From Actinokineospora sp. NBRC 105648 (GTDB lineage: Bacteria > Actinomycetota > Actinomycetes > Mycobacteriales > Pseudonocardiaceae), in assembly GCF_030269645.1 (NCBI RefSeq), contig NZ_BSTR01000008.1:62001-126000 (forward strand): a stretch of DNA of 64,000 nt, read 5' to 3'. Shown here piece after piece: positions 10,974-62,654 of the stretch. How positions within the stretch are numbered: the stretch's first letter is position 1; each line of letters begins with the position of its first letter. Position numbers and translations under genes: made by a program. The notes under the pieces were generated by a model that saw nothing but the letters and a program-made list of their open reading frames with translations, did not search any database and was not told the origin of the DNA.

Positions 10974-12695
10974 TCAGCCCGGGTAGAAGGGCAGTGCTCC
11001 GGCTGCTTGGACGTACTGGTGCAGCTGCCAGACCTTGCCCGCCTCCTGGGTGAACCACACCCCCGACCCGTCCGTCACGATGGCCGACCGGCTCGGTGCC
11101 GCGGTGATCGCGCGGACCGGGAGGGTCAGGTTGGTCGTGTTGTACCTCGTGTAGGTGAGCCCATCGATCGGCATGCTGGCCACCGGGAGGGTGGTCTGCT
11201 CCGTCGCCACGATCAGGGTCAGCCGGTCGAGCCAGTCCAGGCCGATGACGTCCTTGACCACACCGCCCTGGAGGGTGCGGACCGCGCTGATCGTGACCGC
11301 GTCGTTGGTGCGGACCACCGAGGCGACCTTGACCTCGCCGTTGACCACCGCGGCTACCCGGGCGCCGTCGCGGGAGAGCCGCAGCTGGGTGATGGTGCCA
11401 CCGTTCTGGGTGAACTCCGAGGCGTCCACCGGGAAGTCGTCCCACTTGCCGTCCGCCGTTCGGACGACCCGGACCACCAGGGTGCCGTCCTGCACCGTCC
11501 ACACCTCGCTGGGGCCGTTCTCGCTCGCGCCGCCGACGAGCCAGGTGGGGCGGGTCAGGGTGGCGGTGGGCGAGAGGCTCACCTCCGGCAGCTCGGCGTT
11601 CGTCCGGCCTACCCGCAGGCGCATGCCGACCGGGGTCCGCTGCACGACCGCGAGCTGGGTGCCGTCGAGGGACTGCGCCGCGCTGACGATGTCGTAGGCG
11701 CCCGCGCCGGTCGGGCCCTCCACCGGCTTGCCGTCGCGCAGCGAGCGCAGCCTGCCGTCGACCACCGCCAGGCCGAACAGGTCCGGCTTCAGGGTGGTCA
11801 GGGCGTCGTAGGAGCCCACGTCGCCGACCGTCCAGTCCTGGTGGTCGGGCACCAGGTCGGCGCCCTCGACGCGCAGCCGCAGCGGGCTGCTGGTGACGTC
11901 GCGCAGGGAGTACACCAGCTGCGCGGCGATGCGCTGCCGATCCTCGATGGGCTTGTCGAGCCGGGACAGGTTGATCAGGATCGCGCCGCCCGCCTCCTCC
12001 ACCACGTTGGTGCTTAGCGTGACCCCGTCGAGCGGGCTGCGCACGGCACCGCGCAGCGGCTCCGACGGGCCCGCCAGCAGCAGGTCGAGCACCCGGCCGG
12101 AGAGGCCCTGGCGCGGTTCGGTCTCGACGTAGCGCAGGTCCGGCACCAGGACCCGCTGGTCGAGGTCGAAGAACTCCAGGTTGACCCGGCGGTAGCTGGC
12201 CTCGAAGTCCGACTGGTTGATCAGCATCGTGTTCGGCGGCTCGGCGATGCGCCACTGGCCGTCCTCGCGGCGCAGGATCACCCGGTAGGTCACCGACTGC
12301 ACACCCGGGACGAACGACCGGTCCCCCACCAGCCTGCCCAGCGCGGTCGCGGTGAGGACGACCACCTGCTCGTTGGCGTTGTCCCGGCCCTCCTGCACCG
12401 ACTGCGGGACGGTGCGGACCGACTCGTTCTTGATGATCGTCGGCGGCTCGGCGGAGCCCTTCCAGTTGGGCTTGATGTCCTCGGTCAGGTAGGTGCGCGC
12501 GATGTCCGGCGTGCCCGCGTTGTTGACGAAGCCCTGGACCAGGGAGAACGGGTCGAGCCCGGGGGCGGGCTTGCCGATCTGGCGCTGCGGCTGCTCGGTC
12601 GCCTCGACGACGATCTTGGGCAGCGTGCGGTCCGGGATGTTCGCGCAGCCCGCCGCGAGGAACGCGCAGAACAGGGCGATGAGCAGCCGTTTCAC
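10974..12695 (-). CDS. lpqB: Lipoprotein LpqB, MtrAB accessory lipoprotein
   Basis: 573 residues. A short signal peptide ends in the lipobox LAAGC with the lipidated Cys17. It continues with a GerMN-type domain (about residues 200-310, containing RVLDLLLAGPSEPLRGAV) and a C-terminal beta-propeller-like half with regularly spaced TLTRPTW and QLRLSRDGARVA blocks. In mycobacteria LpqB binds the extracellular domain of MtrB and tunes MtrA phosphorylation. The first 4 bases overlap the end of mtrB, indicating translational coupling in an mtrA-mtrB-lpqB operon. Confidence 0.94.
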   Translation of the reverse strand: MKRLLIALFCAFLAAGCANIPDRTLPKIVVEATEQPQRQIGKPAPGLDPFSLVQGFVNNAGTPDIARTYLTEDIKPNWKGSAEPPTIIKNESVRTVPQSVQEGRDNANEQVVVLTATALGRLVGDRSFVPGVQSVTYRVILRREDGQWRIAEPPNTMLINQSDFEASYRRVNLEFFDLDQRVLVPDLRYVETEPRQGLSGRVLDLLLAGPSEPLRGAVRSPLDGVTLSTNVVEEAGGAILINLSRLDKPIEDRQRIAAQLVYSLRDVTSSPLRLRVEGADLVPDHQDWTVGDVGSYDALTTLKPDLFGLAVVDGRLRSLRDGKPVEGPTGAGAYDIVSAAQSLDGTQLAVVQRTPVGMRLRVGRTNAELPEVSLSPTATLTRPTWLVGGASENGPSEVWTVQDGTLVVRVVRTADGKWDDFPVDASEFTQNGGTITQLRLSRDGARVAAVVNGEVKVASVVRTNDAVTISAVRTLQGGVVKDVIGLDWLDRLTLIVATEQTTLPVASMPIDGLTYTRYNTTNLTLPVRAITAAPSRSAIVTDGSGVWFTQEAGKVWQLHQYVQAAGALPFYPG

Positions 12696-24368: not shown

Positions 24369-24508
24369 GCTCGATCTAGTGGACTCGCTTCGTGTGGGGG
24401 GAGAGCACCGCTAAACTTGACCTGTGGTGGGGATGCCCTTCACCCCACGCTTTTTCCCCACAGCGGTGCTCTAGGGGCCCCACACGAAGCGAGTTCACTA
24501 GATCGAGC
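24369..24508 (+). repeat. Palindromic element, copy 1 (140 bp)
   Basis: Outer arms GCTCGATCTAG...CTAGATCGAGC pair over about 31 bp with one G-T wobble; an inner stem AGAGCACCGCT/AGCGGTGCTCT encloses CTAAACTTG, a GTGGGG...CCCCAC hairpin and a T-run. It lies between the convergent glmL and CDF genes. A tail with CTCGGGCAACCC follows, matching half of the linker of the paired copies. Orientation is called plus when CTAAACTTG reads on the plus strand. Confidence 0.9.
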
Positions 24509-39322: not shown

Positions 39323-39457
39323 AGCGCTTCGCAAAGCCGATCACACTGACCCATTCCCCCTCAGACACTTCATCCTTTCATTCCCACTCTTGAAATCCCT
39401 GAATCTTTCACTCTCTAAATGCCGAGCCCGCTGGTACGCAACACCCGTTACGTTTGT
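39323..39457. other. Left part of the GntR–nrdF convergent gap
   Basis: The gap of 675 bases between the GntR gene and nrdF holds element copies 2 and 3 with their linker and a 27-bp repeat array. The first 135 bases include an A/T-richer stretch with repeated CTTTCA words and then CCGCTGGTACGCAAC, which is the conserved outer extension of the element. Confidence 0.6.
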
Positions 39458-39597
39458 GCTCGATTGGGTGGACTGCCTTCGTGTGGGGGGAGGCGACCGC
39501 TAAACTTGCCTCAGTGGTGGGGATGCCCTTCTCCCCACGCTTTTTCCCCACGCGGTCGCCTAGGGGCCCCGCGCGAAGGCAGTCCAGCCAATCGAGC
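39458..39597 (+). repeat. Palindromic element, copy 2 (140 bp)
   Basis: Same architecture and length as copy 1, but with the outer arms changed to GATTGGGTGGACTGCCTTCG and CGAAGGCAGTCCAGCCAATC and the inner stem to AGGCGACCGC/GCGGTCGCCT. Changes on both arms compensate, so the pairing is kept while sequence is not. Confidence 0.9.
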
Positions 39598-39696
39598 CTC
39601 GCTCTTACTTGGGCAGCTCGTGGGGTGTGCCGCACGCCGACCTGCGGTCGACCTTGTTGGCGGCTCATCGCATGGGCTGCCCGATTTACAAGCAGG
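39598..39696. repeat. Linker between inverted element copies 2 and 3
   Basis: 99 bases with a short inverted repeat GGGCAGC (39611-39617) and GCTGCCC (39676-39682), placed symmetrically next to the two elements. The same TTGGGCA word borders the other copies. Confidence 0.6.
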
Positions 39697-39834
39697 GCTC
39701 GATCTAGTGAACTCGCTTCGTGTGGAGCCCCTAGAGCACCGCGGTGGAGAGAAAAGGGCAGGGAAGGGCATCCCCACCCACGGCAAGTTTAGCGGCACTC
39801 TCCCCCCACACGAAGCGAGTCCACCAGATCGAGC
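39697..39834 (-). repeat. Palindromic element, copy 3 (138 bp)
   Basis: Inverted relative to copy 2, forming a head-to-head pair. CAAGTTTAGCGG, GGGCATCCCCACC and the outer arms match the family. Stem wobbles appear as G-U only when read on the minus strand, the element's own plus orientation. Confidence 0.9.
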
Positions 39835-39993
39835 ATCCGTAGCGGGACTTGCGTTCCAGCGGGGTCGGCCTATCCGCTGCGGTGTGCTGGTGGGTCAGGA
39901 TCTTGGTGCTTCGCAGCGGGGTCGGGACCTTGTCATTTTCAGCGGGTCAGGATCCTGTTGCCTGCGAGCGGAGTCGGCCTTTCCGGGTGCGGT
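39835..39993 (+). repeat. Degenerate ~27-bp repeat array beside copy 3
   Basis: Five to six units with the core CAGCGGGGTCGG or CAGCGGGTCAGGATCCT, each about 27 bases. The first unit, GCGTTCCAGCGGGGTCGG, matches the units beside copies 1, 4 and 6. Confidence 0.7.
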
Positions 39994-39997
39994 TGGG

Positions 39998-41005
39998 TTA
40001 GAAGTCTTCGTCCAGGGACACCGAGCCTGCGACTGCCACCTGGTAGGCCGAGACGCGGCGTTCGAAGAAGTTGGTTAGTTCTTGGACGTCTTGCAGTTCC
40101 ATGAAGCCGAACGGGTTCTCTGCGCCGAACTCCGCTGGGTAGCCGAGGCGCACCAGGCGTTGGTCGGCTACGTAGCGGAGGTATTGGCCCATCTCGCCCA
40201 CGTTCATGCCGGAGAGGCCGTCGCCGCATACATCGCGGGCGAATTCCAGTTCGCAGTCCACCGCCTCGGTGATCATTCGGACGACCTCCTCGTGCAGTGC
40301 GTCGTCGAAGAGCTCTGGTTCCTCTGCGCGCACGGTGTCCACCACGCTGAAGGCGAAGGTCATGTGCATGGATTCGTCGCGGAAGACCCAGTTGGTGCCG
40401 GTGGCCAGGCCGTGCAGCAGACCCCGTGAACGCAGCCAGTAAACGTAGGCGAAGGCGCCATAGAAGAACAGGCCCTCGATGCAAGCTGCGAAGCAGATCA
40501 GGTTGAGCAGGAACTGCCTGCGGTGCGCCTTGGTGTCGAGTTGGTCGAGGTCGTTGATCGAGTCGATCCAGCGGAAGCAGAACTCGCCCTTCTGGCGGAT
40601 GGACGGGATGTGCTCGAGCGCGGCGAATGCCTGCACGCGCTCGTCCGGGTCGGGCAGGTAGGTGTCGAGTAGCGTCAGGTAGAACTGGACGTGCACGGCC
40701 TCCTCGAACAGCTGGCGGGAGAGGTAGAGGCGCGCCTCCGGGGCGTTGACGTGCTTGTAGAGGTTGAGCACGAGGTTGTTCGCCACGATCGAGTCGCCGG
40801 TGGCGAAGAACGCGACCAGGCGCTTGACCAGGTGGTGCTCGTCGGGGGTGAGCTTGGCCAGGTCGGCGACGTCGGTGGCGAGGTCGACCTCCTCGACGGT
40901 CCAGGTGTTGCGGATCGCGGCGCGGTACTGCTCGTAGAAGTCGGGGTAGCGCATCGGGCGCAGGGTCAGGTCCATACCGGGGTCGAGCAGGGTGGTCACT
41001 GGCAT
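39998..41005 (-). CDS. nrdF: Class I ribonucleotide reductase, beta (radical-generating) subunit
   Basis: 335 residues. Di-iron ligands Asp71 (FFATGDSIVANN), Glu102 and His105 (FEEAVHVQFY), the radical tyrosine Tyr109 four residues after that His, and a second ligand set in NWVFRDESMHMTFAF. The acidic tail SVSLDEDF docks into the alpha subunit. It supplies the radical for reducing ribonucleotides. Its start overlaps the nrdE stop by 10 bases, so translation is coupled and both answer to the cobalamin riboswitch. nrdB would be an equally acceptable symbol. Confidence 0.94.
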   Translation of the reverse strand: MPVTTLLDPGMDLTLRPMRYPDFYEQYRAAIRNTWTVEEVDLATDVADLAKLTPDEHHLVKRLVAFFATGDSIVANNLVLNLYKHVNAPEARLYLSRQLFEEAVHVQFYLTLLDTYLPDPDERVQAFAALEHIPSIRQKGEFCFRWIDSINDLDQLDTKAHRRQFLLNLICFAACIEGLFFYGAFAYVYWLRSRGLLHGLATGTNWVFRDESMHMTFAFSVVDTVRAEEPELFDDALHEEVVRMITEAVDCELEFARDVCGDGLSGMNVGEMGQYLRYVADQRLVRLGYPAEFGAENPFGFMELQDVQELTNFFERRVSAYQVAVAGSVSLDEDF

Positions 41006-43290
41006 GCCTCGCAGGTCTCGGGGTTCTCCAGGGAGCAGGCGATCGCGTCAGCCGCTGCCACCGGGGTGGTCGACGGGTCGACTGTGTCCGTTGTGGACTG
41101 CGCCGACACGGTGGTCTGCTGGATCCGGGTCGCCGGGCGGGAGCGCAGGTAGTAGGTGGTCTTGAGTCCTGCGCGCCAGGCGTAGGCGTACATCGAGGAG
41201 AGCTTGCCGATGGTCGGGTTCGCCTGGAACAGGTTGAGCGACTGGCCCTGGTCGACGAACGGCGTGCGCGCCGCAGCCAGGTCGATCAACGCCTTCTGCG
41301 GAAGCTCCCAGGCGGTGCGGTAGAGCAGGCGCAGGTCGGCGGGCAGGTCGAGGCCCTGCACGGAACCTTCCGCGGCCTTGATCGCGTCCCTGGTGCGCCG
41401 GTCCCAGCGGCCCAGTGCCTTGAGGTCGGCGACCAGGAAGGGGTTGAGCTGCAAGAACTCGCCGGACAGGGTCTCGCGCTTGAACACGGTGGACACGATC
41501 GGCTCGATGCACTCCGAGCAGCCCGCGATCGAGGCGATGGTCGCGGTGGGCGCGATCGCGACGGTCAGGGAGTTGCGGAGTCCGGTGTGGATGATCCGCT
41601 CGCGCAGCGCTGCCCAGCGGGCGGGTTCGGTGATCGCGGCGTCGGGGTAGTGGTCGACGTGCAGCACGCCGCGGGCGGCGCGGGTCTGGTCGTAGGCGGG
41701 GTGTGCGCCCAACTCCTCGGCCAGCGCGGCGGAGGTCTCGTACGCGGTCAGCGCGATCCGCTCGGCGATCTTGGTCGACAGCGCCAGCGCCTCCGGTGAG
41801 TCGAAGGGCAGGCGCAGCGCGAAGAACACGTCGGCCAGGCCCATCACGCCCAGCCCGATCGGGCGCCACCGGCGGTTGCTGCCCGCGGCGGGCGGGGTCG
41901 GGTAGAAGGACAGGTCGATGGTGCGGTCGAGGAACCGGACGGCGGTGCGCACGGTGCGGTCGAGCCGGTCCCAGTCGAGGTCCTGACCGTCCACATGGGA
42001 CTTGAGGTTGACCGAGCCGAGGTTGCACACCGCGGTGGTCTCGTCGTCGGTGACCTCGAGGATCTCGGTGCACAGGTTGGACAGGTGTACCACGTTGCCC
42101 GGCTCGGCGGTCTGGTTGCAGGAGCGGTTCGCCGCGTCCTTGAAGGTCATCCAGCCGTTGCCGGTCTGGGCCAGGGTGCGCATCATCCGGCCGTAGAGCA
42201 CCCGGGCCCCGATCGTCCGCTCGGCCAACCCGGCGTCCTCGGCGGCCCGGTAGGCCGCGTCGAACTCCGCGCCCCACAGGTCGGGCAGGTGCGGGACGAG
42301 CTTGGGGTCGAACAGCGACCAGTCGGCGTCGGTCTCGACCCGGCGCATGAACTCGTCGGGCACCCACAGGGCCAGGCTGAGGTTGTGCGTGCGCGCGGCC
42401 TCGTCACCGGTGCTGTCGCGCAGCTCGAGGAACGCCTCGACGTCGGCGTGCCACGGTTCCAAGTAGACGCACGCGGCCCCCTTCCGCTTGCCGCCCTGGT
42501 TGACCGCGGCCACCGAGGCGTCGAGGGTGCGCAGCCAGGGGACGATGCCGTTGGAGGCGCCGTTGGTGCCGCGGATGAGCGAGCCGCGGGAGCGGATCCT
42601 GGTCCAGGAGACGCCGATGCCGCCCGCGAACTTCGACAGCCGGGCAATCTCGCCGTACCGGTGGTAGATCGACTCCAGCTCGTCGCGCGGCGAGTCGAGC
42701 AGGAAGCACGAAGACAGCTGCGGGTGGGTGGTGCCGGAGTTGAACAGCGTGGGCGAGCTGGGCAGATAGGCCAGCTGGCTCATCAGGGCGTAGAGCTCGG
42801 CGGCCTCCTCCGGCGAGTTCGACAGTCCACACGCGACTCGGAGGAAGAAGTACTGCGGGGTCTCCAGGACCTGGCGGGTCTCGGGGTGCCGGAGCAGGTA
42901 GCGGTCATAGATTGTACGCAGGCCGAAATAGCCGAGGTTGTCGTCGGCGGACTCGTCGACCGTGGCGTTGAGGGCGTCCGCGCCGGCCGCCACGAAGTCG
43001 GCCAGCCGGGCCGAGACGACACCGAGGTCGTGCGCCCGCGCGATGGCGGCGGCGAAGGTGGGGACGGCGACCTCGTCCCGGACGTGCTCGGCCAACAGGC
43101 GCGCGGCGAAGGAGCTGTACTGGGGTTCCTCACCGACCAGGCTCGCCGCGACGCGGATCGCGAGCTCGCGCACCTCCTCCGGCGGCGCCCCCGGACGCGT
43201 CCCGGCCCGAACGGCGGCCGCGACCCGCTCCACGTCCACCTCCGGCAGGTCGGCCGGAAGCCGCCGCAGCGGCACGTCGGTCACTGTCAT
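40996..43290 (-). CDS. nrdE: Class I ribonucleotide reductase, alpha (catalytic) subunit
   Basis: 764 residues. It has LSSCFLLDSPRDELESIY with the first active-site Cys, the substrate-site NLCTEILEVTDDETTAVCNLGS, the loop RRWRPIGLGVMGLADVF, the catalytic core near APTATIASIAGCSECIEPI, and a C-terminal redox pair CEACQ. The N-terminus has only a shortened ATP-cone-like region (about 12-60), so activity control by dATP is uncertain. ATG 43290 has GAGGAG 10 bases upstream. It lies 120 bases downstream of a cobalamin riboswitch. The symbol nrdA is also used for this type. Confidence 0.94.
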   Translation of the reverse strand: MTVTDVPLRRLPADLPEVDVERVAAAVRAGTRPGAPPEEVRELAIRVAASLVGEEPQYSSFAARLLAEHVRDEVAVPTFAAAIARAHDLGVVSARLADFVAAGADALNATVDESADDNLGYFGLRTIYDRYLLRHPETRQVLETPQYFFLRVACGLSNSPEEAAELYALMSQLAYLPSSPTLFNSGTTHPQLSSCFLLDSPRDELESIYHRYGEIARLSKFAGGIGVSWTRIRSRGSLIRGTNGASNGIVPWLRTLDASVAAVNQGGKRKGAACVYLEPWHADVEAFLELRDSTGDEAARTHNLSLALWVPDEFMRRVETDADWSLFDPKLVPHLPDLWGAEFDAAYRAAEDAGLAERTIGARVLYGRMMRTLAQTGNGWMTFKDAANRSCNQTAEPGNVVHLSNLCTEILEVTDDETTAVCNLGSVNLKSHVDGQDLDWDRLDRTVRTAVRFLDRTIDLSFYPTPPAAGSNRRWRPIGLGVMGLADVFFALRLPFDSPEALALSTKIAERIALTAYETSAALAEELGAHPAYDQTRAARGVLHVDHYPDAAITEPARWAALRERIIHTGLRNSLTVAIAPTATIASIAGCSECIEPIVSTVFKRETLSGEFLQLNPFLVADLKALGRWDRRTRDAIKAAEGSVQGLDLPADLRLLYRTAWELPQKALIDLAAARTPFVDQGQSLNLFQANPTIGKLSSMYAYAWRAGLKTTYYLRSRPATRIQQTTVSAQSTTDTVDPSTTPVAAADAIACSLENPETCEACQ

Positions 43291-43412
43291 CTCGCACTCT
43301 CCTCGTGTGCAATCCGGGACACGAGACGCGCAGGGACAGGCGGGCACGCCGCCTGTCGTCCGCGTTGACCCATCCACGAGGCCCGGGACCAAGCGCGCAC
43401 CGGGCTCGGCAC

Positions 43413-43610
43413 GCGCACTGGTGGCAGGTCTTCGGACTCGTGGGCGGTCGCGCTCTTCCTACTGGCCGTCGCTTCCCAGACCAGAGGCCCAGTGCTCGTG
43501 ACGGCGGTCGTTCCCACTCACCGCTGCGGGACAGTCCCGGAGTCGCACCGGGTTCCCTCTTGCCTCGCCGCTCTGGCGAACCAACCAGCGAGCGTGAGAC
43601 TACATGTTGG
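43413..43610 (-). promoter_or_regulatory. Cobalamin (AdoCbl) riboswitch upstream of nrdE
   Basis: Read on the minus strand it has the signature blocks in order: AGAGGGAACCCGGTGCGACT, CCGGGACTGTCCCGCAGCGG, then a GGGAAGCGACGGCCAG region, and the B12-box-like GAGTCCGAAGACCTGCCACC near the 3' end. In Streptomyces a B12 riboswitch represses the class I reductase when a B12-dependent class II enzyme can serve. The same logic is likely here. The ends are approximate by a few bases. The gap from 43611 to 43779 should hold the promoter; I see nothing else there. Confidence 0.92.
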
Positions 43611-47242: not shown

Positions 47243-47381
47243 GCTCGATCTAGTGAACTCACTTCGTGCGGGGCCCCTAGAGCACCGCGGTGGGAAAAAG
47301 CGTGGGGAGAAGGGCATCCCCACCACAGGTCAAGTTTAGCGGTACTCCTCCCCCACACGAAGCGAGTCCACTAGATCGAGC
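47243..47381 (-). repeat. Palindromic element, copy 4 (139 bp)
   Basis: Minus orientation. It has CTCGATCTAGTGAACTC and GAGTCCACTAGATCGAG arms, CAAGTTTAGCGG, and GAAGGGCATCCCCACC. It sits between the convergent small-protein gene and wbbL. On the element's own strand the stem differences are G-U wobbles. Confidence 0.9.
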
Positions 47382-47455
47382 ATTCGTAGCGGGGCGGCGG
47401 TACCAGCGGGCTTGGTATTCTGGCGCGTTCCAGCGGGGGCGGGATTCTCGCCCTT
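47382..47455 (+). repeat. Two-unit ~27-bp repeat array beside copy 4
   Basis: GGTACCAGCGGGCTTGGTATTCT and GGCGCGTTCCAGCGGGGGCGGGATTCT, matching units beside copy 6. Confidence 0.65.
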
Positions 47456-47775
47456 CCTTCCTGGCTGCTTCCCTGCTTCCCTGCTTCCCTGCTTCCCTGC
47501 TTCCCTGCTTCCCTGCTTCTTCCCCTCGTTGAGTCCCTAGCCGATCGTTCTTTCCTTGCCCCGCCCCGTTCTTACCTGCCCTCGCCGCTTCCCTGCTTCG
47601 CCGACTTCTTAGCTCTTGCCCTCTTCCTTGCCCTGCCCCCTGCTCTCGCATTGCCCTCTCCCCCCTGTCCGACCTCTGCCCTCTTTCCTTCCCTCACCTC
47701 TTCCTAACCCTCGCCCCTTTTCTTCCCCTTCCCCTTCTCCTCTTCCCTTTCCCCTTTTCCTTCCCTCTTTCCTGC
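47456..47775 (+). repeat. Pyrimidine-rich tract, ~320 bases, with six tandem GCTTCCCT units
   Basis: The plus strand is almost all C and T. It starts with six perfect GCTTCCCT copies (47467-47514) and becomes almost purely pyrimidine in 47700-47770. It lies just past the wbbL stop. A long polypurine/polypyrimidine run can form triplex or slow replication and transcription. No gene is supported inside it. Confidence 0.85.
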
Positions 47776-55843: not shown

Positions 55844-55983
55844 GCTCGATCTAGTGGACTCCCTTTGTGTGGGGGAGGAGTGCCGCTAAACTTGACCTGT
55901 GGTGGGGATGCCCTTCACCCCACGCTTTTTCCCCACCGCGGTGCTCTAGGGGCCCCGCGCAAAGGGAGTTCACTAGATCGAGC
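55844..55983 (+). repeat. Palindromic element, copy 5 (140 bp)
   Basis: Plus orientation. Outer arms now read TGGACTCCCTTTG and CAAAGGGAGTTCA, again compensating changes on both sides; the inner stem GAGTGCCGC/GCGGTGCTC holds two G-U pairs in this orientation. The central part CTAAACTTGACCTGTGGTGG is identical to copy 1. Confidence 0.9.
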
Positions 55984-56066
55984 GCCCGCTCTTAACTTGG
56001 GCAACCTGTATGGGCTACTTTTGTTGGCTGAGCGTAGCTCGTACAGGTTGCCCGACTAAGACGCAG
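55984..56066. repeat. Linker between inverted copies 5 and 6 with a 12-bp inverted repeat
   Basis: GGGCAACCTGTA at 55999-56010 is exactly complementary to TACAGGTTGCCC at 56042-56053. It links the two inverted elements into one symmetrical unit of about 360 bp. Confidence 0.75.
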
Positions 56067-56206
56067 GCTCGATTCACTGAACTCACTTCGCGCGGGGCCC
56101 CTAGAGCACCGCGGTGGCGAAAAAAGGGCGGGTGAAGGGCATCCCCACCACACGGCAAGTTTAGCGGTACTCCTCCCCCACACGAAGCGAGTCCAGCAAA
56201 TCGAGC
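56067..56206 (-). repeat. Palindromic element, copy 6 (140 bp)
   Basis: Minus orientation, paired head-to-head with copy 5. Arms GCTCGATTCACTGAACTCAC and GCGAGTCCAGCAAATCGAGC pair less perfectly than in the other copies (extra mismatches near the tip). GCAAGTTTAGCGG and GAAGGGCATCCCCACC are kept. Confidence 0.88.
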
Positions 56207-56376
56207 ACACGGGTGGCGGGTGTTGCGTACCAGCGGGCTTGGGATCCTGTTGCGTTCCAGCGGGGGCGGAATCGGTCGCGCACCAGCAGGGACTCGGGTT
56301 CTGGCGCGTTCCAGCGAGGGCGGTTCTGACGTTCGAGTAAGGGCGGGATCCTGTTGCGTTTTGGCGGATACAGAGG
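56207..56376 (+). repeat. Degenerate ~27-bp repeat array beside copy 6
   Basis: About six units near the consensus GTTGCGTTCCAGCGGGGG plus CGGGATCCT. Examples begin at GTTGCGTACCAGCGGGCTTG, GTTGCGTTCCAGCGGGGGCG, GTCGCGCACCAGCAGGGACT and GGCGCGTTCCAGCGAGGGCG. It ends just before the rmlD stop. Confidence 0.75.
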
Positions 56377-61636: not shown

Positions 61637-62299
61637 TTGAGCCTCACTGAGACACTCCTACGCCCACTGCCGTCGGCAAAGCCCCTCATCACCCACTACG
61701 ACGACGCAGCGGGGACACGGGTAGAGCTATCGGTCGCCACCGTCCGAAACTGGGCAGCCAAGACCGCGAACTGGCTGGTCGAAGAGCACGACGTAGAACC
61801 GGGAACACCGGTAGCCGTGCAACTCCCCGCACACTGGCAGACAGCAGGCGTACTACTCGGCGCGTGGTGGGCCGGAGCACACGTGATCGCCGACGGCCCA
61901 GCCGCAGTCACCTTCGTCGCCCCCGGCGAGTCAGCGGATGGCACCGTCGCGGCAGTGTCCCTGGACCCAATGGGCCGAGACCTGGGCGGCCCCTCCGGCG
62001 GCGCGGCCGATTTCGTCGGCGAAGCAAGATTGTTCGGAGACGACTTCTTCGGACCATCAGTCCCAGGATCAACCCTCGCCCTGGCAGGCATGACTGTCGA
62101 CGAAGTCCTAACAGTGGCAAAGGGCCTCCCAGAAGGCACACGACTGCTGTCGACACTGGCCTGGACAATCCCAGACGGCGTACTAGCGGCACTGGTAGCC
62201 CCGCTCGCAACAGGCGGCTCCCTAGTCCAGGTAACAAACCCCTCCCGCCTCGACTCCCACCGCACCGCAGAACGCACCACAGTGGACAGACTGGCCTGA
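61637..62299 (+). CDS. TIGR03089 family protein (acyl-CoA synthetase N-terminal-like)
   Basis: 220 residues. It looks like the N-terminal part of an AMP-binding acyl-CoA synthetase (VRNWAAKTANWLVEEHDVEP, VAVQLPAHWQTAGVLLGAWW) but lacks the adenylate-forming loop and C-terminal domain. This short form (TIGR03089) follows LCP genes in mycobacteria too (the Rv3268 position), so it is not a truncated pseudogene. The start chosen is TTG 61637 with GGAG 7 bases upstream; ATG 61613 is possible but overlaps the LCP gene by 13 bases. The function is unknown. Confidence 0.85.
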   Translation: MSLTETLLRPLPSAKPLITHYDDAAGTRVELSVATVRNWAAKTANWLVEEHDVEPGTPVAVQLPAHWQTAGVLLGAWWAGAHVIADGPAAVTFVAPGESADGTVAAVSLDPMGRDLGGPSGGAADFVGEARLFGDDFFGPSVPGSTLALAGMTVDEVLTVAKGLPEGTRLLSTLAWTIPDGVLAALVAPLATGGSLVQVTNPSRLDSHRTAERTTVDRLA

Positions 62300-62511: not shown

Positions 62512-62654
62512 GCTCGATTGGGTGGAGTGGCTTTGTTTGGGGAGAAAAGAGGCGCTAGCCTGACCCAGGCGGTGGGTATCCCTTTCCCACCCGCTCTACC
62601 CACTGCGCCTCTTTTCTTAGGGGCCCCGAACAAAGCCACTCCACCCAATCGAGC
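62512..62654 (+). repeat. Palindromic element, copy 7, divergent (143 bp)
   Basis: Outer arms GCTCGATTGGGTGGAGTGGC and GCCACTCCACCCAATCGAGC pair perfectly; the inner stem is AAAAGAGGCGC/GCGCCTCTTTT and the central hairpin is GGTGGG...CCCACC. CTAAACTTG is not kept, but TTAGGGGCCCC is. This is the only copy between co-directional genes. Confidence 0.85.

Follow-up and report, generated by a model that had tools for sequence, protein, structure and literature searches.

What are the long palindromes of about 140 bp that recur across this Actinokineospora locus, and why do their arms remain able to pair? The window, by which we mean the whole stretch of 64,000 nucleotides analysed here, corresponds to positions 62001–126000 of contig C8 in its own genome (G000; 8.43 Mb in 149 contigs). 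An earlier note on this stretch had described seven full copies of an element of no named family and had proposed selection on a folded RNA or single-stranded DNA. Our analyses revealed a fold that is kept on one strand, dispersed copies, lineage-specific sites and an intergenic placement. Beyond what the earlier note had anticipated, the copies lie on both strands, pair tail to tail in composites of about 450 bp, are dispersed throughout the genus at sites that are empty in the closest relative, and have loop motifs that recur. On balance, we consider the element to be, probably, a new ERIC/REPIN-like, non-autonomous mobile family that depends on a folded strand.

All seven copies are real and lie where the earlier note had put them. 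Their shared architecture stands as well, although three of them (39697–39834, 47243–47381 and 56067–56206) occupy the minus strand, which had been missed; flipping these three takes the mean identity per column in the seven-copy alignment from 68% up to 81%. Two plus-strand copies are single, one at 24369–24508 (nhmmer 150.4 bits, the copy being in the seed profile; 146.2 bits with the covariance model R1), in which both arms of the outer stem P1 can be read directly, and a divergent one at 62512–62654 (nhmmer 100.4 bits, again with the copy in the seed profile; R1 127.4 bits), whose stem 2 and apex are unlike those of the other copies. The copy at 47243–47381 is a minus-strand single, placed by the seven-copy alignment and profile. 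The remaining four belong to two larger units, composites A and B. In composite A, a left plus-strand member at 39458–39597, located by sequence and the nhmmer profile and present as identical 140-bp copies at two further places in G000, is joined to a right minus-strand member at 39697–39834 (alignment and profile) by a linker at 39598–39696 that contains its own inverted repeat (GGGCAGC.. / ..GCTGCCC). The unit is flanked by a left outer arm at 39420–39457 (TGCCGAGCCCGCTGGTACGCAACACCCGTTACG..), kept in the composite A consensus (n=24), and a right outer arm at 39835–39869, to which the left arm is partly complementary. Composite B consists of a plus-strand member at 55844–55983, a linker at 55984–56066 with the inverted repeat GGGCAACCTGTA / TACAGGTTGCCC, and a minus-strand member at 56067–56206, both members being assigned by the alignment and profile.

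Other features adjoin these copies. A second repeat family of GTTCCAGCGGGGNCGGGATCCTGTTGC-like tandem units borders elements at 39840–39960 and 56222–56372, and tandem TTCCCTGC repeats adjoin an element at 47445–47516. A cobalamin riboswitch at 43406–43601 (minus strand, 97.2 bits) lies upstream of the minus-strand genes 40996–43284 and 39998–40999; since the latter encodes the small chain of ribonucleotide reductase, the two are probably B12-controlled reductase genes.

The element folds into a rod. An outer stem P1 of 31 bp is followed by an internal loop (GG or GA opposite AGGGG) and an inner stem P2 of about 10 bp, in agreement with the stem lengths proposed before; beyond P2 there is usually (T/C)AA(A/G)CT and then an apical hairpin with a T-run. 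The GTGGGG/CCCCAC apical hairpin and T-run attributed to all seven copies hold for the main subfamilies, with another apex in the divergent copy at 62512–62654. Overall length is roughly 105–155 bp, with no protein gene seen inside. On the plus strand of the 39458 copy, the P1 arms lie at 39458–39488 and 39567–39597 and the P2 arms at 39491–39500 and 39552–39561, TAAACTTG starts directly after the P2 5' arm at 39501, and the conserved AGGGG on the 3' side of the internal loop occupies 39562–39566; P1 of a copy identical to this one folds with a single mismatch.

The same architecture emerges when distinct sequences are folded freely, with no alignment used. Among the sequences of the window's own genome, 98 of 99 parse, with a P1 of 31 bp in 75, a P2 of 10 bp in 76 and a 3' loop of exactly AGGGG in 79 of the 98; 52 of 55 sequences from genus relatives parse (exact AGGGG in 27), as do 20 of 22 from other genera, where P1 mostly measures 14–30 bp and an extra outer helix masks the architecture in two of the 20. 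In a loose window scan, the motif (T/C)AA(A/G)C(T/C) follows P2 in 79/99 own, 27/34 G012, 30/55 genus-relative and 15/22 other-genus sequences, and the variant TAGC(G/C)T in a further 12, 0, 17 and 1, respectively, making it a recurring rather than an invariant motif. From Actinokineospora to other genera the stem letters turn over almost wholly, and the fold and loop motifs recur. A mirror-repeat triplex at the AGGGG loop, considered by reasoning only, fails on geometry. Alignments A4, A5 and A6 contained wrong-strand rows, and the better strand per place was counted for private changes, orientation, folding and the motif; the near-full-length set comprised 137 copies.

The compensating stem changes cited in the earlier note are present in the sequence, and covariation is strong. 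We used 23 representatives clustered at 88% identity, drawn from seven genomes (G000, G002, G003, G005, G008, G012 and G014, some contributing several); in alignment A3 the truncated representative L058:9366 was swapped for the intact window copy 55844 of its cluster. Of 939 stem cells, 97.0% are paired, against a shuffled mean of 76.7% and against 36–44% when the partner is slid by 1–3 columns. Both sides have changed in 32 of 41 stem pairs, double-changed cells number 181 versus 54.7 in shuffles, and the covariation score is 0.594, compared with 0.201 in shuffles and 0.07–0.12 for slid partners. None of 500 shuffles matched the observed value on any of the five measures, and chance is excluded as the source of the pairing. 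A single genome, G012, gives a similar picture in an alignment fitted to the model (40 copies, 34 distinct): 99.5% of cells are paired, double-changed cells number 286 versus 103.5 shuffled, and three of the five measures lie beyond the shuffles. The number of pairs changed on both sides and that of further pair types fall within the shuffle range in this genome (26 and 494 of 500 shuffles, respectively, reach the value), probably owing to the dominance of two subfamilies.

Which strand carries the selected fold? Read on the plus strand, the non-Watson–Crick cells of stem 1 comprise 237 G.T, 7 A.C and 52 other cells in 107 own copies and 88, 1 and 5 in 30 relatives, and both stems of G012 together hold 46 G.T and no A.C; the G-U pairs thus do fall in the plus orientation, as had been claimed. 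Many stem-1 G.T cells are common by descent, and private variants provide the better test. In G000 subfamilies with at least five members, after the truncated L058:9366 and the chimeric L052:103 had been dropped beforehand, private one-sided changes away from a Watson–Crick pair gave 13 G.T, 1 A.C and 1 other (G.T versus A.C, p=0.002); with both damaged copies kept, the counts are 12 G.T, 3 A.C (two from L058) and 3 other (one each from L058 and L052). Those of G012 are 6 G.T, 0 A.C (p=0.03) and 4 other, so that four of ten break the pair. Private loop changes in G000 show no strand bias (C>T plus A>G 10 versus G>A plus T>C 8), and strand-biased mutation therefore does not explain the G.T excess in the stem. 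The G.T excess, the mostly fold-preserving private changes and the unbiased loop mutations, added to the strong covariation, support selection on one folded strand, RNA or single-stranded DNA, as first proposed.

The same evidence bears on whether the element could be an ordinary double-stranded palindrome, i.e., a protein site or DNA MITE in which template-switch correction, and not selection on the fold, keeps the arms matched. MITEs typically have perfect long inverted repeats, and private double-sided changes do occur among the copies; arm correction is strand-neutral, however, and the plus-strand imbalance of 237 G.T to 7 A.C in stem 1 is explained neither by it nor by plain double-stranded symmetry. 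With loop mutations showing no strand bias and the size and letters of the AGGGG loop kept in most own-genome copies, we regard this explanation as extremely improbable.

How far has the element spread within its own genome? A profile built from the seven copies, run over the window and 40 stretches around known hits (835 kb, a sample biased in density), locates 112 places, arranged as 37 pairs and 38 singles, and near-identical copies are scattered across many contigs. All but one of the pairs are tail-to-tail (36/37), with linkers of 80–102 bp in 35 and of 58 bp in one. Most pairs sit inside composites A (24 aligned) or B (12 aligned; about 450 bp long), whose linkers are conserved inverted repeats and whose conserved outer arms are able to pair with each other; in composite A, conservation extends on one side into tandem GC-rich CCAGCGGGGTCGG-type repeats. 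Other genomes are organized differently: G003, a single contig with at least 150 copies, shows the mosaics ++, -+, --, --+ and ---+ with a spacing mostly of 237–297 bp, and 63 of the 65 copies in G012 are singles. Some contigs of the G000 assembly terminate within element copies, a warning on the assembly of the window. As a separate observation, seven small genes stand in tandem at 11998–15892 of L174 (G000:C8), forming two similarity clusters with starts that look like signal peptides by eye.

A search with R1, which the earlier note had suggested, recovers matches beyond G000 that are concentrated in the genus and the family. Copies per genome are lower bounds, since the best 150, 26, 10 or 8 candidates were scored per genome, and absences in the samples are soft; match rows often count the two strands of one copy (115 rows in G012 are 65 places). 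At E<=0.001 all 16 genomes of this genus of soil bacteria match, with at least 13 to at least 150 rows each apart from G006, which has one. That one match is a stem-1-like hairpin plus GGGCCCCT, devoid of stem 2 and apex (L116 1501–1569); it is a probable relic, which suggests that the G006 lineage formerly carried the element. Matches were found in 22 of 120 genomes of the family sample (5 of the genus, 17 in 8 other genera), in 10 of 298 of the order sample (nine from the same family and one weak match outside it) and in 2 of 394 of the class sample, both Actinokineospora. All 59 matches listed from a pattern scan come from Actinokineospora diospyrosa, A. terrae or A. globicatena, and a search with one element copy returned no match in plasmids or phages.

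Site comparisons indicate that occupancy is specific to lineages. We take G006 as the closest relative of G000 on the basis of one protein, the ribonucleotide reductase small chain (92% identity, against 72–77% for nine other genomes matching at E<=1e-100). Its contig C7 shows block synteny with the window's contig, interrupted by inversions; a segment of about 8 kb (G000:C8 92613–101997) is inverted relative to G006:C7, and composite A lies near one breakpoint. Over its 213 kb the window's contig has 17 match rows at 16 element places, and the partly syntenic contig of G006 has no match at E<=10 in 234,673 bp. Eight element-bearing gaps of G000 were compared side by side with G006. Three, of 812, 420 and 654 bp, correspond to 32, 24 and 8 bp; at the other five, G006 contains 229–796 bp of different sequence, which blurs the comparison. 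Several intergenic regions of G000 are inflated by low-complexity DNA that is missing from G006 at the sites read, and such inflation by other repeats accounts for the lack of a clean target-site duplication in G000. At a further site the element is present in G005 and G003 and absent from ten genomes spanning it, with four others giving no call. Here stem 1 is identical in the two carriers, stem 2 shows two differences, each compensated on the opposite arm, and the flanks do not align, similarity stopping at the foot of P1; the stem-2 differences fit in-place compensation and independent insertion alike. No target-site duplication is visible at this site or in the G000/G006 gaps. Two species of genus g17 have five element sites in common (93–97% identity, 1.9 kb on each side), which indicates that there the elements are inherited and do not jump. 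In one shared pair, both arms of stem 1 have changed in step at two positions, possibly through conversion by another copy.

Where do the copies lie with respect to genes? With a GC-frame caller, which misses genes, no copy among the 112 in G000 shares more than 20 bases with a called gene. By base count, 25% of the intergenic DNA lies in convergent and 24% in divergent gaps; of the 71 units having both neighbours, 36 occupy the former (p=3.5e-6) and 5 the latter (p=2.5e-4). Outside G000 the figures, counted without a background, are 38 and 6 of 73. The elements of G074, g17 and G011 are biased toward the sense orientation (17 ++ versus 4 --, orthologous loci being counted twice), and one of 40 copies overlaps a called ORF.

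One may consider a cis-acting RNA at mRNA 3' ends, such as a terminator, an RNase target or a stabiliser, copies of which are kept because the transcript folds. The plus-strand G.T signature, the largely fold-keeping private variants, the position downstream of genes and the sites common to both g17 species would all suit such a role, as would a co-oriented gene on the 5' side at 18/20 (G074), 10/12 (g17) and 7/8 (G011) loci and the 18 ++ versus 11 -- at other-genome loci, from genomes partly overlapping that set. The sense bias is, however, absent in G012 (10 ++ versus 9 --) and among G000 singles (9 versus 7), the contig of the closest relative has no copies, and some alignments show, 5' of the element, a distinct hairpin that by eye resembles a terminator. 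Hence, we consider a purely cis-acting RNA unlikely. The fold-preserving private variants could nevertheless reflect a cis function of each copy after insertion, a point against mobility, and retention at the G005/G003 site could stem from cis selection or independent insertion. The sites shared by the two g17 species, and the four pair-breaking changes among ten in G012, likewise count against the reading that we favour.

If the element is probably mobile, as we favour, what carries it? No mobilising gene was found among those looked at, namely Y1 transposases, reverse transcriptases and neighbouring protein families. An all-against-all comparison of the 844 proteins called in the fetched stretches yielded no family of at least three members enriched beside copies; just two clusters of that size exist, and both lie more than 700 bp away from any element. 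It is conceivable that the element moves through single-stranded DNA by a Y1 transposase (RAYT or IS200/IS605-like) in the manner of REPINs, which the sections cited describe as short, extragenic, clustered hairpins of inverted repeats with compensatory changes (PMC3116915), features that the element shares. Y1_Tnp (PF01797), however, has no match in G000 and one each in two of the 16 genus genomes, and no strand bias by replication arm was found for any assumed origin in G012 (permutation test, p=0.99) or in G003 with its at least 150 copies (p=0.27 for singles, 0.76 for all), which renders this route highly improbable. Setting the origin at coordinate 1 for the arm test was invalid, none of seven proteins tested near two contig starts being DnaA.

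Spread of an RNA by reverse transcription, SINE-like, would fit the one-strand, RNA-like covariation, the lack of coding content and the end of G005/G003 similarity at the P1 foot, and three RVT_1 (PF00078) matches exceed the cut-off in G000 (C67:22314–22883, C3:154256–154903 and C5:187246–187767). We still judge it very unlikely: RVT_1 occurs in three of the 16 genus genomes, G000 among them, and is missing from 13, yet 15 of the 16 have at least 13 element rows. A pair of genes lying close together in G012 (L336 27–6559), encoding DUF2397 and SbcC-like Walker B proteins, brings to mind a defence operon of the Wadjet (Jet) type.

For the mobile family that we favour, we propose the following model. 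Given copying and one-strand selection, we infer that the mobilising factor reads the fold. Supplied in trans, this factor would recognise the folded strand, be it RNA or extruded single-stranded DNA, by the strand's loops and rod and irrespective of stem letters, so that lineages would be free to rewrite both stems while the fold stays. Copies would insert intergenically, mostly at converging gene pairs, and could build up, tail to tail, larger palindromic units able to spread as a single piece. The carrier may be a host factor, or a factor that is sporadically lost. More tentatively, and with appreciable doubt, we speculate that the element exemplifies a new class: protein-free, with, as its main heritable constraint, a rod-like fold of one strand in which loop motifs recur (GG/AGGGG, (T/C)AARCT and an apical hairpin plus T-run), and moved as folded RNA or single-stranded DNA in a large part of an actinobacterial family, the bacterial factor behind this being something other than a Y1 transposase or a standard reverse transcriptase. 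Interspersed repeats of bacteria are generally familiar as families of related sequence; in this one it is a fold that is conserved, whatever the letters, in up to at least 150 copies per genome, without the transposase that explains REPINs. Natural carriers, a relative in which a probable relic but no copy was detected (G006) and a covariance model for finding more make the movement of an ERIC-like repeat testable.

Does the element belong to a family already named? Rfam 15 has none of this kind, in line with the earlier note: a cobalamin riboswitch elsewhere is the sole model to reach the gathering threshold on the window, a lax scan of 39350–39950 gives two chance-level matches (E 0.94 and 2.3), and 20 other element loci return only a SAM riboswitch elsewhere in L143. 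A twister-like reading of TAARCT was dropped in the absence of an Rfam match. No paper on the element was found in the part of the open-licence PMC literature covered, and the consensus of triplex repeats, as given in the section cited, differs (PMC4666352). The element is short, non-coding, intergenic and multi-copy with inverted terminal arms, as MITEs are, and no IS or MITE end that would explain the stem was found in the fetched stretches of G000. It has the inverted doublets, hairpins and compensatory changes of REPINs, each unit already being one hairpin and the doublets being the composites. One end of a REP is reported to carry a GTAG/CGTC tag (PMC3733652); the outer ends of the element, read by eye, are GCTC, GTGA, GCCT, GGTG or GTGC, without a fixed tag, and some copies contain GTAG internally, at the AGGGG loop.

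Among known systems, ERIC, an enterobacterial element likened here by description only, is mainly a sequence family; the stems of our element, in contrast, change their letters from genus to genus, with the fold and the loop motifs recurring. ERIC (127 bp) resembles it in size, in its intergenic position, in forming one long stem-loop and in reaching up to hundreds of copies, and is described in the passages cited as inserting at 3' ends and as being regarded as a MITE (PMC10969869, PMC2267715). The REPIN/REP-BIME system with its RAYT is, in the cited description, likewise built of inverted-pair hairpins with compensatory changes and is clustered, extragenic and non-autonomous (PMC3116915). 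Our element differs in its unit of about 140 bp, compared with 20–40 bp for REPs, in a host without a Y1 transposase match and in a strand unbiased by replication arm; it is the transposase that sets it apart from true REPINs. Correia/NEMIS elements of Neisseria, again likened by description, are MITE-sized and give transcripts that RNase III cleaves at the terminal repeats, as a MITE review puts it in the part cited. A survey of stem-loop families in bacterial genomes reports, in the sections cited, 92 repeated families, 57 with predicted shared structure (PMC2267715); the element is of the same general kind. The high-GC species named there belong to Corynebacterium and Mycobacterium, and no member with its architecture is among the families those sections present. 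As far as these accounts go, ERIC and the REPINs are the nearest known kinds in behaviour.
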